Below are positions 723-10,756 of a stretch of DNA of 64,000 nt, one piece after another. The notes below the pieces were generated by a model, which saw only the letters and a list, made by a program, of their open reading frames with translations, did no database searches and was not told the origin of the DNA. Location of the stretch: assembly GCF_014268585.2 (NCBI RefSeq), contig NZ_CP077092.1, positions 1,674,001 through 1,738,000 of the forward strand, written 5' to 3'. The number at the start of each line of letters is the position of its first letter. The first letter of the stretch is position 1. The position numbers and the translations under genes are program-made. Source of the stretch: Pseudomonas iranensis (GTDB lineage: Bacteria > Pseudomonadota > Gammaproteobacteria > Pseudomonadales > Pseudomonadaceae).

Positions 723-816
723 CCCGTGGGAGCGAGCCTGCTCGCGAAGGCGGTGGGTCAGCCACATCAATGTTGAATGACATACCGCATTCGCGAGCAG
801 GCTCGCTCCCACAGGG
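723..816. repeat. REP doublet (REPIN), GTGGGAGCGAGC family
   Basis: Two inverted copies of a palindromic REP sequence lie at 723-748 (CCCGTGGGAGCGAGCCTG...) and 790-816, separated by about 40 bp. The doublet sits between the end of the allophanate hydrolase gene (stop at 825) and the upstream region of the sensor gene. Its outer ends carry GTGGG and its inner ends GCGAA, the usual arrangement of Pseudomonas REPINs. Confidence 0.95.
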
Positions 817-2622: not shown

Positions 2623-5600
2623 TCAGTCGAGTTCCAGCACCGCCACCCGTTGTCCGGCGCGCACCGCCGAACCGGGTTGCACGCGGATCTCGCGCACCAC
2701 GCCGGCCAGCGGCGCGAGGACAGGGATTTCCATCTTCATCGACTCGAGAATCACCAGTACATCGCCCGCCGCGACGCGCTGGCCGGTCTCGACCTGCACC
2801 TGCCAGAGATTGCCGGCGATGTGGCTGTCGACGCTGTGTTCACCGCTGTGCAGCGGTGCTTCTTCGCTGGCGTCAGGCACGGCTTCTTCGCTGTCGAAAT
2901 GCGCCTGGCCGCTGGCGATCCAGCGCTCGCGTTCAGCCTTGAACGCGCCCTGTTGCTGCGCACGGAAAGCGCTGATGCCCTCGGCTTCCTGACTGAGAAA
3001 TGCCTGATAGTCGGCGAGGTTGAGCTGGCTGTGTTCGATGTTCAGATCGAAGCGCCCAAGGGGGAAGTCGCGGCGGATGCGCAGCAGTTCTTCAGCGCTG
3101 ACCGGGTAGAAGCGGATCTGATCGAAGAAGCGCAGCAGCCACGGTTTGCCATCGAACGCGGCGACTTCGCGATAGCGATTCCACATCTGCAGGGTGCGCC
3201 CGACAAACTGATAACCGCCCGGGCCTTCCATGCCGTACACGCACATGTAGGCGCCGCCGATGCCCACCGAATTCTCGGCGGTCCAGGTACGCGCCGGGTT
3301 GTACTTGGTGGTCACCAGACGATGGCGCGGATCGAGCGGCGTGGCCACCGGCGCGCCGAGGTAAACGTCGCCAAGGCCCATCACCAGATAGCTCGCATCG
3401 AACACCGTGCGCTGCACTTCGTCGAGGTTCGGCAGGTCGTTGATGCGCCGGATGAACTCCAGATTGCTCGGGCACCACGGCGCGTCCTTGCGCACGGTGG
3501 TCATGTATTTCTCGATCGCCAACTGGCAGGCCGGGTCGTCCCACGACAGCGGCAAGTGCACGATGCGCGACGGCACTTGCAGATCTTTTGCGGCGCACAC
3601 CGCGTCCCATTCGCCGGCGATGATGCCGAGCAGATCGGCCAGCGGCAGTTGCTCCGGCTGGTAGTGCACTTGCAGCGAGCGAATGCCCGGGGTGAGGTCG
3701 ATCACCCCATCCAGGGCTTGGCTTTCCAGCGCCTGCATCAGTGCGTGGGCGCGAAAGCGCAGGACCAGATCAAGCTCCGGCGCGCCGATTTCCAGCAGTA
3801 GATGAGTGTCGCCAGAAACCCGTGCAACCAGTCGCTGATCGCCTTGGCCCAACGCCAACACCACAGGCGACATCAAACCCTGTGGGAGCGAGCCTGCTCG
3901 CGAAGAGGCCGTGTCAGTCAATATCGATTTGTCTGGGGCGACGCTTTCGCGAGCAGGCTCGCTCCCACAGGGGGCATCCCATTTCAGGGCGAGATCGCGG
4001 GCGGTGCAGAGGTCGACGGGGATGAACTGAATTTTATCGCCCGCCTTGAGCTGCCCCAGCTGCCACAGATCCGCCTCGATCACCGTCACCGGGCAGACAA
4101 ACCCACCCAGGCTCGGGCCATCCGGGCCGAGGATCACCGGCATGTCCCCGGTGAAATCCACCGCACCAATCGCATACGGATTGTCATGGATGTTCGACGG
4201 GTGCAGACCCGCTTCACCGCCATCCTCACGCACCCACTCAGGCTTCGGTCCGATCAGGCGCACGCCGGTGCGGCTGGAGTTGAAATGCACTTCCCACTGG
4301 GTCGCGAAGAATGTGGCGATGTAGTTTTCGCTGAAGTATTCCGGTGCGCCGTGCGGGCCGTAGATCACCCGGATCTGGCGCACGCTCGGCAGCGCCGTGA
4401 TGTGCTGTTCGGCCAGTTGCTGGCCGGCGCTGCGCTCGGCCAATGCCGGCACATGCAACACGTCACCGGCCCTCAACGCGCGACCGCCATGCCCGCCAAA
4501 CTGGCCGAGGGTGAAGGTACTTTTGCTGCCCAGATAATCCGGCACCTGCACGCCGCCGCGCAGGCACAGATAACTGCGCGCGCCGGCGCCGCTGATGCTG
4601 CCCAGCTGCAACGTCGCGCCGGCCGGGATCAGCAGCGCGGTGTTCATCGGTACCGGTTCAGCGTCAAGGGTCAAGGCAATCGGCGCGCCGGTCACCGCGA
4701 CCACCGCGTCACAATTGAAGCGCAGGATCGGCCCGCTCATGGTGATTTCCAGTGCGGCGGCGCCTTGTTCATTGCCGAGCAGACGATTGCCCAGGCGCAG
4801 CGCTCGGCTGTCCATCGGCCCCGAGGGTGGCACGCCGACGGCCCAGTAGCCGAGGCGTCCGGGATAGTCCTGCACGCTGGTTTGCGTACCGGCGCTGAGT
4901 ACTTCGAAGGTGTTGGCGTGATACAGCAGATTTTCCAGACAACGGGTCCACGGCTGACCGCTGGCGAATGGAGTATCGAGCAGAATCTGGCGCAGGTAAT
5001 CGCGGTTGGTTTCCACGCCGTACAGCAGGCTATCGCCCAATGCCTGATGGAGTTCGGCGCGAGCCTGTTCGCGACTCGGCGCCCACGCGATGAGCTTGGC
5101 GATCATCGGATCGAAATACGGCGGAATTTCTACACCGGCCTCGACCCAGGTGTCGATGCGCAACTCAACGCCGTTGGCTGGCGGAAATTGCACAGCGGTC
5201 AGCAGGCCCGGGCTCGGCTGGAAATCACGCCCCGGATCTTCCGCGTACAGACGTGCCTGAATCGCATGGCCCTGCGGTTCCAGGCCTTGATACAACTCGT
5301 TCAGCGGCGGCAGATCACCAGCGGCCAGCTCGATCATCCAGCGCACCAGATCCACGTCCCACACCTGTTCGGTGACGCCGTGCTCGACCTGCAACCGCGT
5401 GTTCACTTCGAGAAAATAGAAGCGCTGGCCCTCGCTGTCGAAGACGAATTCGACGGTGCCGGCGCTGCGGTAATTCACTGCTTGCGCCAGTTTGATCGCC
5501 GCTGCGCACAGCTCATCGGCCATGCCTTCTGGCAGGTTCGGCGCCGGGGTTTCTTCGAGGACTTTCTGGTTGCGCCGCTGCACCGAACAGTCGCGCACGC

Positions 5601-6270
5601 CGAGAGCGATGACTTCACCGCAGCCGTCGCCGAACACCTGCACTTCCAGATGCCGCGCGCGTTCGATGTACTTCTCGATGAACACGCCGGCGTCGCTGAA
5701 GTTATTCTGGCCGAGGCGTTTCACGGCTTCGAACGACTCGCTCAACTCGCTCGCGCTGCGGCACACGCGCATGCCGATGCCACCACCGCCAGCGGTGCTT
5801 TTCAGCATCACCGGGTAGCCGACCTGTTCGGCGGCGCTCAGCGCGCAATCGAGGCTGTCGAGCAGGTCGGTGCCTTCGAGCATCGGTACGCCGTGCTGTT
5901 TGGCCAAGGCGCGAGCAGTGTGCTTGAGGCCGAACACCCGCAATTGCTCCGGCGTCGGCCCGATGAAGGCGATGCCCTGCGCTTCGCAGGCTTCGGCGAA
6001 CGCTGCGTTCTCGGAGAGAAATCCGTAGCCGGGATGAATCGCCGTGGCGCCACTTTGTTTGGCGATCGTGAGGATTTTGTCTATCGCCAGATACGTCGCG
6101 GACGCCGCGCCTTCGCCGAGGCTGTACGCTTCAGCGGCCTGGGAGATGTGCAGGCTGGCAGCATCGGCTTCGGAGTACACGGCGACGCCTTGGGCCTTCA
6201 GCACGTTGATCGTGCGCAGGATGCGACAGGCAATCGCGCCACGGTTGGCGATGAGGATTTTTTCGAACAT
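2623..6270 (-). CDS. Biotin-dependent guanidine/urea carboxylase, with an in-frame REP doublet
   Basis: This 1215-residue multidomain enzyme starts at MFEKILIANRG (ATG 6270); the 33 codons open upstream do not look like protein. It has a biotin carboxylase/ATP-grasp N-terminus (about 1-450), two KipA/KipI-type allophanate-hydrolase-subunit-like domains, and a C-terminal biotinyl domain with the ESMKME biotin-lysine motif. The family was named urea carboxylase. Members beside two DUF1989 genes and a ykkC riboswitch are known to carboxylate guanidine, and that applies here. Residues about 767-798, between the two Kip-like domains, are encoded by a REP doublet (3878-3972). The flanking frame is preserved, so the protein should be full length with a linker of roughly 30 extra residues. 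Confidence 0.92.
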   Translation of the reverse strand: MFEKILIANRGAIACRILRTINVLKAQGVAVYSEADAASLHISQAAEAYSLGEGAASATYLAIDKILTIAKQSGATAIHPGYGFLSENAAFAEACEAQGIAFIGPTPEQLRVFGLKHTARALAKQHGVPMLEGTDLLDSLDCALSAAEQVGYPVMLKSTAGGGGIGMRVCRSASELSESFEAVKRLGQNNFSDAGVFIEKYIERARHLEVQVFGDGCGEVIALGVRDCSVQRRNQKVLEETPAPNLPEGMADELCAAAIKLAQAVNYRSAGTVEFVFDSEGQRFYFLEVNTRLQVEHGVTEQVWDVDLVRWMIELAAGDLPPLNELYQGLEPQGHAIQARLYAEDPGRDFQPSPGLLTAVQFPPANGVELRIDTWVEAGVEIPPYFDPMIAKLIAWAPSREQARAELHQALGDSLLYGVETNRDYLRQILLDTPFASGQPWTRCLENLLYHANTFEVLSAGTQTSVQDYPGRLGYWAVGVPPSGPMDSRALRLGNRLLGNEQGAAALEITMSGPILRFNCDAVVAVTGAPIALTLDAEPVPMNTALLIPAGATLQLGSISGAGARSYLCLRGGVQVPDYLGSKSTFTLGQFGGHGGRALRAGDVLHVPALAERSAGQQLAEQHITALPSVRQIRVIYGPHGAPEYFSENYIATFFATQWEVHFNSSRTGVRLIGPKPEWVREDGGEAGLHPSNIHDNPYAIGAVDFTGDMPVILGPDGPSLGGFVCPVTVIEADLWQLGQLKAGDKIQFIPVDLCTARDLALKWDAPCGSEPARESVAPDKSILTDTASSRAGSLPQGLMSPVVLALGQGDQRLVARVSGDTHLLLEIGAPELDLVLRFRAHALMQALESQALDGVIDLTPGIRSLQVHYQPEQLPLADLLGIIAGEWDAVCAAKDLQVPSRIVHLPLSWDDPACQLAIEKYMTTVRKDAPWCPSNLEFIRRINDLPNLDEVQRTVFDASYLVMGLGDVYLGAPVATPLDPRHRLVTTKYNPARTWTAENSVGIGGAYMCVYGMEGPGGYQFVGRTLQMWNRYREVAAFDGKPWLLRFFDQIRFYPVSAEELLRIRRDFPLGRFDLNIEHSQLNLADYQAFLSQEAEGISAFRAQQQGAFKAERERWIASGQAHFDSEEAVPDASEEAPLHSGEHSVDSHIAGNLWQVQVETGQRVAAGDVLVILESMKMEIPVLAPLAGVVREIRVQPGSAVRAGQRVAVLELD
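3878..3972. repeat. REP doublet (REPIN) inside the carboxylase coding sequence
   Basis: Inverted arms at 3878-3904 (CCCTGTGGGAGCGAGCC...) and about 3945-3972 (...GCTCGCTCCCACAGGG) match the REPIN at 723-816 almost base for base. The element lies inside the open frame of the carboxylase and is read as peptide containing GSEPARES and SRAGSLPQ, typical translations of this repeat. The flanking protein reads as normal family sequence on both sides, so the insertion kept the frame. Confidence 0.95.
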
Positions 6271-6465
6271 GGCATAACCCCTGAAGGGGGAGCGGGCCGT
6301 CCCGCTGTTTTTCGACAGACATCCGGGCCGTCCCGGATGGAAAACACACACTTCACTCCAACCCACCACAAACCCACAGGGTTCAGGGTTGTCCGGTGGA
6401 TTTCAGGCACTGCCCGGAACGCGCCTGGCACAGTGCAAAAAGCCAACGGCGTAAGCGGCTGATGG

Positions 6466-10603: not shown

Positions 10604-10700
10604 GCTTGTCTCCCGGGCTTTTGTCCCGCCGTGTAACCTCAACTGGAGGTCGCCAACTCTCGGACCAGCCACTCGCGCTTGCGAGCCGGAACCCTAGTCA
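10603..10700 (-). promoter_or_regulatory. Guanidine-I (ykkC) riboswitch
   Basis: Reading the minus strand from 10700, the leader carries, in order, the conserved blocks of the ykkC/guanidine-I aptamer: CTAGGGTTCCG (about 10697-10687), GGTCCGAGAG (around 10665), ACACGGCGGGACAAAAGCCCGGGAGA (split here for reference as ACACGGCGGGA and AAGCCCGGGAGA, ending near 10609). It sits 59 bp before the binding-protein start codon. The class binds guanidinium and turns expression on. The expression platform is not obvious: no U-rich terminator follows, so control may be translational or through a short hairpin at 10590-10603. Confidence 0.9.
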
Positions 10701-10756
10701 GCCATTGCAAATTGTGGTGCCGCGAACCTGTGATGACTCCTGCACAGGTTTGCTAA

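Follow-up and report, generated by a model that had tools for sequence, protein, structure and literature searches.

How does a repeat that is usually treated as extragenic come to lie in frame in the middle of a large enzyme, and what becomes of it there? The REPINs of Pseudomonas, in the excerpted account of Bertels and Rainey (2011, PMC3116915), consist of two inverted REPs and a spacer, occur in high copy number, form hairpins and were counted in extragenic space; the one considered here is part of a carboxylase. It lies in a window of 64,000 nucleotides of Pseudomonas iranensis (contig NZ_CP077092.1, positions 1,674,001 to 1,738,000), with the following features:

2623..6270, minus strand: urea/guanidine carboxylase gene, 1215 aa from Met (TIGR02712, 1886 bits against a cut-off of 1304; Pfam domains)
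4021..4839, minus strand: CT_A_B (KipA-like) carboxyltransferase half (PF02626, residues 480-752 of P0001)
3163..3822, minus strand: CT_C_D (KipI-like) carboxyltransferase half (PF02682, residues 819-1038 of P0001)
3878..3972, minus strand: in-frame REP doublet (REPIN), 95 bp, residues 767-798 from Met (coordinates; dispersed copies in its own genome)
3946..3972, minus strand: REP arm on the 5' side of the coding strand, encoding ..CGSEPARE (27-nt inverted repeat)
3905..3945, minus strand: loop between the 27-nt arms; 43 nt between the 19-nt REP cores
3878..3904, minus strand: REP arm on the 3' side of the coding strand, encoding SRAGSLPQ (27-nt inverted repeat)
6292..6339, minus strand: Guanidine-II riboswitch directly upstream of the carboxylase gene (RF01068, 44.6 bits, gathering threshold 32)
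723..816, no strand assigned: second REPIN of the same arm class, outside the carboxylase gene

An earlier note on this DNA had described a doublet in frame in the linker between the KipA- and KipI-like domains, with normal family sequence on both flanks and a coding contribution of about 30 residues, and this description stands. The arms are identical, perfectly inverted and 41 nt apart; the coordinates and the two Pfam halves agree with it; the ORF stays open between conserved flanks; and the residue numbers hold when counted from the start Met. Each arm is a GTGG/GTAG-tagged REP with an internal palindrome, TGTGGGAGCGAGCCTGCTCGCGAA, and contains PF10 of the REP list in PMC3686654. A 20-mer arm pattern has 535 + 531 exact matches in the genome of origin and its reversed control has 0, and the RNA of the element, taken together with short flanks, forms a long hairpin at -73 kcal/mol (z -9.6). 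Structure and copy number both class it as a REPIN; what is unusual is its location, which is not extragenic. The near-identity that had been claimed with the copy at 723..816 is true of the arms, which match, and does not extend to the loop, which differs (76 of 96 aligned columns identical).

The host protein has the domain order BC, CT_A_B, CT_C_D and biotinyl and scores above the TIGR02712 cut-off, and about 20 bp separate its start codon from the end of the upstream Guanidine-II riboswitch, a context from which we take the enzyme to be probably a guanidine carboxylase. To call the gene essential-looking, as had been done, appears too strong for a catabolic enzyme behind such a riboswitch. 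A Guanidine-I riboswitch lies at 10608-10708 (minus strand), so that one gene cluster carries two guanidine riboswitch classes, II and I.

The earlier note took the doublet for a private insertion, either tolerated or recent and not yet removed, and predicted that about 31-32 residues would be missing from close relatives. The prediction fails: at the same linker most of these relatives carry a REP doublet, often of another class. REP-type peptides such as CGSEPARE..SRAGSLPQ, CGSGLARE..SRASPLPQ and CRSEPARD..SRAGSLLQ were recognized by eye in the 100 linkers extracted from the best 120 of 8000 scored homologues, the other 20 not being extractable, in a search whose query included the insert and therefore favored carriers. 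An even draw of 119 Pseudomonas genomes yielded 62 orthologues, the window's own genome included, with linkers of between 12 and 307 residues. When up to 3 mismatches are allowed, 47 of these 62 linkers contain one or more arms of a listed repeat family and 35 contain two or more; the arm test succeeds in 4 of 1670 windows of equal length taken from other parts of these 62 genes. With at most 1 mismatch allowed, the contrast is 43 of 62 linkers with 0 of 1670 windows. A second, named set, the best 80 of 589 loci, whose organisms overlap those of the genus sample and which was counted apart, has at least one arm in 63 of 80 linkers and at least two in 43. Without reference to any family, an inverted repeat scoring at least 15 is found in 32 of 62 linkers and 0 of 1670 same-gene windows, and one scoring at least 10 and above all 60 codon shuffles in 44 of 62.

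The element is dispensable, given that 15 of the 62 linkers have no recognized arm. The same stretch measures 12-30 residues in these 15 repeat-free Pseudomonas linkers and 46 in the window, a net gain of 16-34. In the 80 named genes and the window, aligned over gap-poor columns that do not extend to the ends, length varies by more than 3 residues at no other internal place. Outside the genus but within the class, none of 17 complete orthologues has a strong inverted repeat (best score 10), these being 22 loci minus L189 (the window's own gene), L191 (wrong frame) and the partial L201-L203; visual inspection of six readable Pseudomonas paralogues gave no repeat, a seventh (L212) having been dropped for its wrong frame. 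An assembly error is unlikely, with the same site occupied in dozens of genomes. Two observations concern the records themselves: the carboxylase match of genome G041 has one stop inside, and three loci from records titled P. viridiflava (L001, L042 and L059) are 92, 77 and 82% identical to the window over the best segment, so that their species labels may be unreliable.

The occupants of the linker are diverse. We name the REP classes by their peptides, EPAR, GLAR, WLAS, ELAR and QLAG; other repeats are of the GTGGCGAGGGAGC type, the GAGCGGATTTATCCGC type (often recognizable only with 2-3 mismatches), GTAGCCCGGATGCAATCCGGG and CCCTCTCCC..GGGAGAGGG. Set against the REP list of PMC3686654, as far as that paper is excerpted, EPAR corresponds to PF10 and PF11, GLAR to PF9, WLAS to PF14, ELAR to PF8, PF10 or PF18, and the GTGGCGAGG type to PF7 or PF17, whereas the CCCTCTCCC and GTAGCCCGGATG palindromes are absent from its entries PF1-PF22. 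PF8-PF16 belong there to a single RAYT orthogroup, IV. Copy number varies as well: the linker of L138 (G094:C2:1042066-1046899) is a run of 307 residues encoded by eight tandem in-frame REP doublets, that of L042 is a tandem array, those of L058 and L073 mix repeat families, and L013 has a mixed doublet with one GLAR and one WLAS arm.

Palindromes of the CCCTCTCCC/GGGAGAGGG family lie in frame in the same linker of L041, L051, L054, L058, L063, L069, L073, L120, L126 and L139, where they encode SPLPxGEG-like and PSPQPSPxGRG-like peptides. One group (L045, L059, L076, L109, L119 and L130) carries a decayed REP read in another frame, as WEPGLPAMQ or something close to it, and shorter remnants of it are possible in L123, L131 and L052. 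Tandem REP arrays also occur outside the carboxylase gene, at G034:C1:1785231-1786388 and G078:C1:4714904-4715613.

The reading frame leaves its mark on what is retained. For this we used (+,-) doublets with exact arms, took the distance between their 19-nt REP cores as the loop length and removed identical genes and loops. The loop length is 3n+1 in 30 of 32 distinct in-gene doublets (31, 37, 43 or 46 nt, the remaining two being 35 nt) and in 15 of 34 doublets from the DNA flanking the same genes; before that removal, with overlapping loci counted twice, the figures were 33 of 35 and 17 of 37 (Fisher p 7e-6, uncorrected for kinship). Over 800 kb of the genome to which the window belongs, 44 nt is the loop length in 27 of 41 doublets but in none of those in the gene, and 11 of the 41 would keep the frame open. 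Of that genome, 864 kb (some 14%) were examined for REP clusters, and two of the 102 that could be tested fall inside coding-like ORFs, namely the carboxylase one and one in an ORF without a Pfam match. The latter (L167, 3503-4453) was set aside as a second intragenic case, the ORF being probably spurious.

Close relatives differ in the REP class and repeat family of the occupant, in its copy number, and in the loop and its orientation. With the linker columns left out, a tree of 41 near orthologues needs 18 changes to account for five class labels (minimum possible 4; shuffled-label mean 22.4); 3 of 200 shuffles need as few, so the labels are weakly clustered, a point against the reading that we favor below. 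The window and its sister L083 illustrate such a change. The former has an EPAR REPIN with a 43-nt loop and the latter a WLAS REPIN with a 31-nt loop, and over six 150-nt bins the two genes are 95% identical beside the element on both sides and 96-99% further out; the difference between them is essentially the element itself. The adjoining bin is less alike than the next in several of the other 16 pairs compared (0.83 vs 0.92 in L003/L011; 0.82 vs 0.93 in L085/L086), which may reflect relaxed constraint or short import and therefore leaves room for short allelic imports.

For none of the swaps was a donor copy found, the best match of the window element in its own genome being 88%, and this too weighs against our preferred reading. 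A query near the L083 element matches in-gene copies of G034, G084 and G019 at 94, 92 and 91%, with intergenic copies at no more than 85% among the matches listed. Because the in-gene WLAS elements of these three genomes are more alike mutually than any is to the listed intergenic ones, the idea that each change on the tree was a fresh insertion from the resident genome is weakened.

The most telling occupant is an element with a 31-nt loop. Of the 32 distinct in-gene doublets, 13 have a loop of this length, as against 0 of 34 flanking and 0 of 41 own-genome doublets, an absence outside the gene that comes from samples and partial listings and to that extent counts against us; among the REPIN places listed for parts of G034 and G097, none has it. 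Neighboring lengths do occur outside the gene, as a 33-nt loop in G084 (L217) and a 32-nt intergenic loop in G034 (L216), the latter scoring 1.5 against the 31-nt consensus, where shuffled sequence reaches 6.5 and the in-gene 31-nt loops score 21-31. In a wider in-gene set of 19 doublets with this loop, the arms are WLAS in 14, EPAR in 3, GLAR in 1 and mixed in 1, and the loop is inverted in 4. One loop is thus accompanied by different arms in different species, and the arms therefore appear to have been rewritten in place.

The arms themselves are strikingly uniform within a class. Among 33 intact doublets, same-class arms are 97.7% identical (135 pairs), compared with 80.8% between classes (387 pairs). 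At third codon positions the same-class value is 97.0%, whereas such positions elsewhere in the gene are only 68.7% identical. In 36 doublets, counted without linkers L081, L093, L095 and L102, which repeat others, 810 of 828 arm-to-arm cells are Watson-Crick paired, and two pair types occur at 7 of 23 arm positions, accompanied by amino-acid changes in the arms. Homogenization among REPs predicts both the identity and the pairing, so that selection on the peptide is not needed to account for them.

The class in the gene also follows the REP population of its host. We compared in-gene class with exact whole-genome counts of four classes in 21 fluorescens-group genomes, G083 having been dropped from 22 for a class that was not counted, and with labels taken from imperfect arms in four of them (G074, G097, G016 and G049). 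The in-gene class has a mean log10 of own-genome copies of 2.55, against 1.78 for shuffled labels, and 0 of 20000 shuffles were as high, although kinship among the sequences means that these shuffles, like the Fisher tests, overstate significance. Within these 21 genomes, an in-gene EPAR element always goes with 462 or more EPAR copies and a GLAR element with 432 or more GLAR copies; for ELAR the minimum is 86, and the relation is weaker for WLAS, with a minimum of 19. Two results go the other way: the in-gene class ranks first among the four in only 12 of 21 genomes, and WLAS elements often sit in genomes where WLAS is a minority. Judged by the first places listed, the host of L007, which has GLAR arms, has mostly GLAR REPs, and that of L003, with EPAR arms, has EPAR, ELAR and GLAR without WLAS. 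EPAR is the commonest of the four counted classes in the window's own genome, which has two Y1_Tnp matches. One of these (L205, G000:C1:1951001-1955500) has WLAS REPs on both sides and an EPAR doublet about 2 kb away, and the other has none of the searched arms within 4 kb. WLAS flanks around L205 in an EPAR-rich genome are consistent with a class switch.

We consider it probable that this linker is a permissive safe harbor for REPINs, a site that has housed palindromic repeats, mostly REPINs, through the divergence of the genus, with arms homogenized with the REPs of the host genome and selection filtering for frame and stops. The linker would be flexible and exposed, such that most in-frame, stop-free peptides are tolerated, a property that we infer from the family pattern alone; an AlphaFold model from 29 close sequences was poor throughout (mean pLDDT 54), with linker blocks at 27-36 and much else low. 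The hundreds of REPs elsewhere in the genome would serve as templates for rewriting the arms, through short ectopic conversion or template switching, and one rewritten arm could then template the other within the hairpin, as arm-to-arm correction. The same hairpin might occasionally invert the loop, multiply the doublet or admit replacement by a whole REPIN, perhaps with RAYT assistance, and selection would act mainly as a filter against frameshifts and stops. For the resident with the private 31-nt loop in particular, we are evenly divided on whether its arms were rewritten to host REP classes, with inversion and amplification along the way and the protein unbroken throughout. In the window lineage, an older 31-nt-loop element most likely gave way to the present EPAR REPIN with its 43-nt loop, a history to which the idea of an insert awaiting removal does not do justice.

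Several other accounts deserve weight. A single recent insertion, private to the window genome and either tolerated or awaiting removal, has in its favor an in-frame element with normal flanks and a loop that, among the intact 43-nt loops compared, is close only to that of the nearest relative, L082 (42 of 43). It has become very improbable in the face of the arms in 47 of 62 orthologous linkers, the peptides in the carrier-favoring homologue search and the different REPIN at the same place in L083; the homologue linkers rule it out as a description of the site, and it is possible only in the sense that the latest replacement was recent. Excision and re-insertion by a RAYT at a GTGG/GTAG-tagged REP target, at the same point and without gene conversion, would fit TGTGG or TGTAG being kept in most in-gene arms, the two Y1_Tnp matches with WLAS REPs beside one, the whole-element difference between the window and L083, and the presence of unrelated palindrome families in the linker. 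We nevertheless think it unlikely, for it leaves unexplained how one loop, unseen outside the gene in our samples, comes with different arms, it does not explain the mixed doublet of L013 (though mixed doublets exist outside the gene too), and the CCCTCTCCC and GTAGCCCGGATG palindromes are not among the PF1-PF22 REPs.

Pseudomonas exchange genes, and the discordance might then stem from allelic recombination between species and not from change at a resident element. The greater likeness of the L083-like query to in-gene copies and the less similar adjoining bin in several of the 17 pairs both point that way. We hold this doubtful: the window and L083 are 95% identical in both adjoining bins and 96-99% further out, and one loop with different arms would require breakpoints inside the element. 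Functional domestication, with the hairpin or peptide selected, for instance to slow ribosomes for folding, or with a needed linker length, would suit a strong hairpin in the middle of an ORF, arms kept complementary through paired amino-acid changes and the high occupancy in near relatives. This we regard as quite improbable, since the occupants are unrelated in sequence and in length, 15 linkers have no recognized arm, strong inverted repeats are missing from the 17 complete orthologues of other genera, and REP homogenization alone yields the complementarity.

Parts of this reading have precedents. In-frame palindromic elements are already known from Rickettsia and from GTAG/CGTC REPs; what appears to be new is a single coding site with changing REPINs across a genus. 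In the excerpted text of PMC3733652, GTAG/CGTC REPs and their dimers lie inside ORFs of several bacteria, where they encode 20-30 residues, and REPs occupy about the same recB site in two Xanthomonas species, for which a flexible location was proposed. The intragenic REPs of that account are scattered over many genes, unlike the single carboxylase site, and the same text contains no case of one genus-wide site with class turnover, loop inversion and unrelated families. It also cites the Rickettsia palindromic elements (RPEs) as in-frame palindromes.

Genes that host RPEs stay functional, and RPEs have spread into many unrelated genes. The window REPIN resembles them in being an in-frame insert in an intact host protein and differs in its reach, the in-frame REPs of the 864 kb sample being limited to the carboxylase gene and the one ORF without a Pfam match. 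Among the open-access papers listed by full-text searches, none has a title or abstract opening that points to the carboxylase linker site. An 'orthoswitch' among orthogroup classes, followed by multiplication, has been deduced for the REPs that flank RAYT genes (PMC3686654, in excerpt); the difference in arm class described here is instead seen at one fixed intragenic locus.

Although REPINs are usually treated as extragenic and a model of their populations, as excerpted from PMC8049555, assumes that copying into a gene destroys it, the carboxylase linker is a counter-example to that assumption. With a frame reporter built in, gains, swaps, inversions and deletions can be traced at one locus across a genus, and the choice between transposition and in-place conversion as the source of changes in REP class becomes testable. 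The site also bears on the correct reading of in-gene repeats during annotation, and a large enzyme that accepts foreign peptides of up to about 300 residues in this position could be of use in protein engineering. If a resident with the 31-nt loop has indeed had its arms rewritten in place to follow the host classes, the linker would preserve, at a fixed locus, a natural record of conversion as a route to REP orthoswitching, and would be an interchangeable part of a protein supplied by a mobile element.
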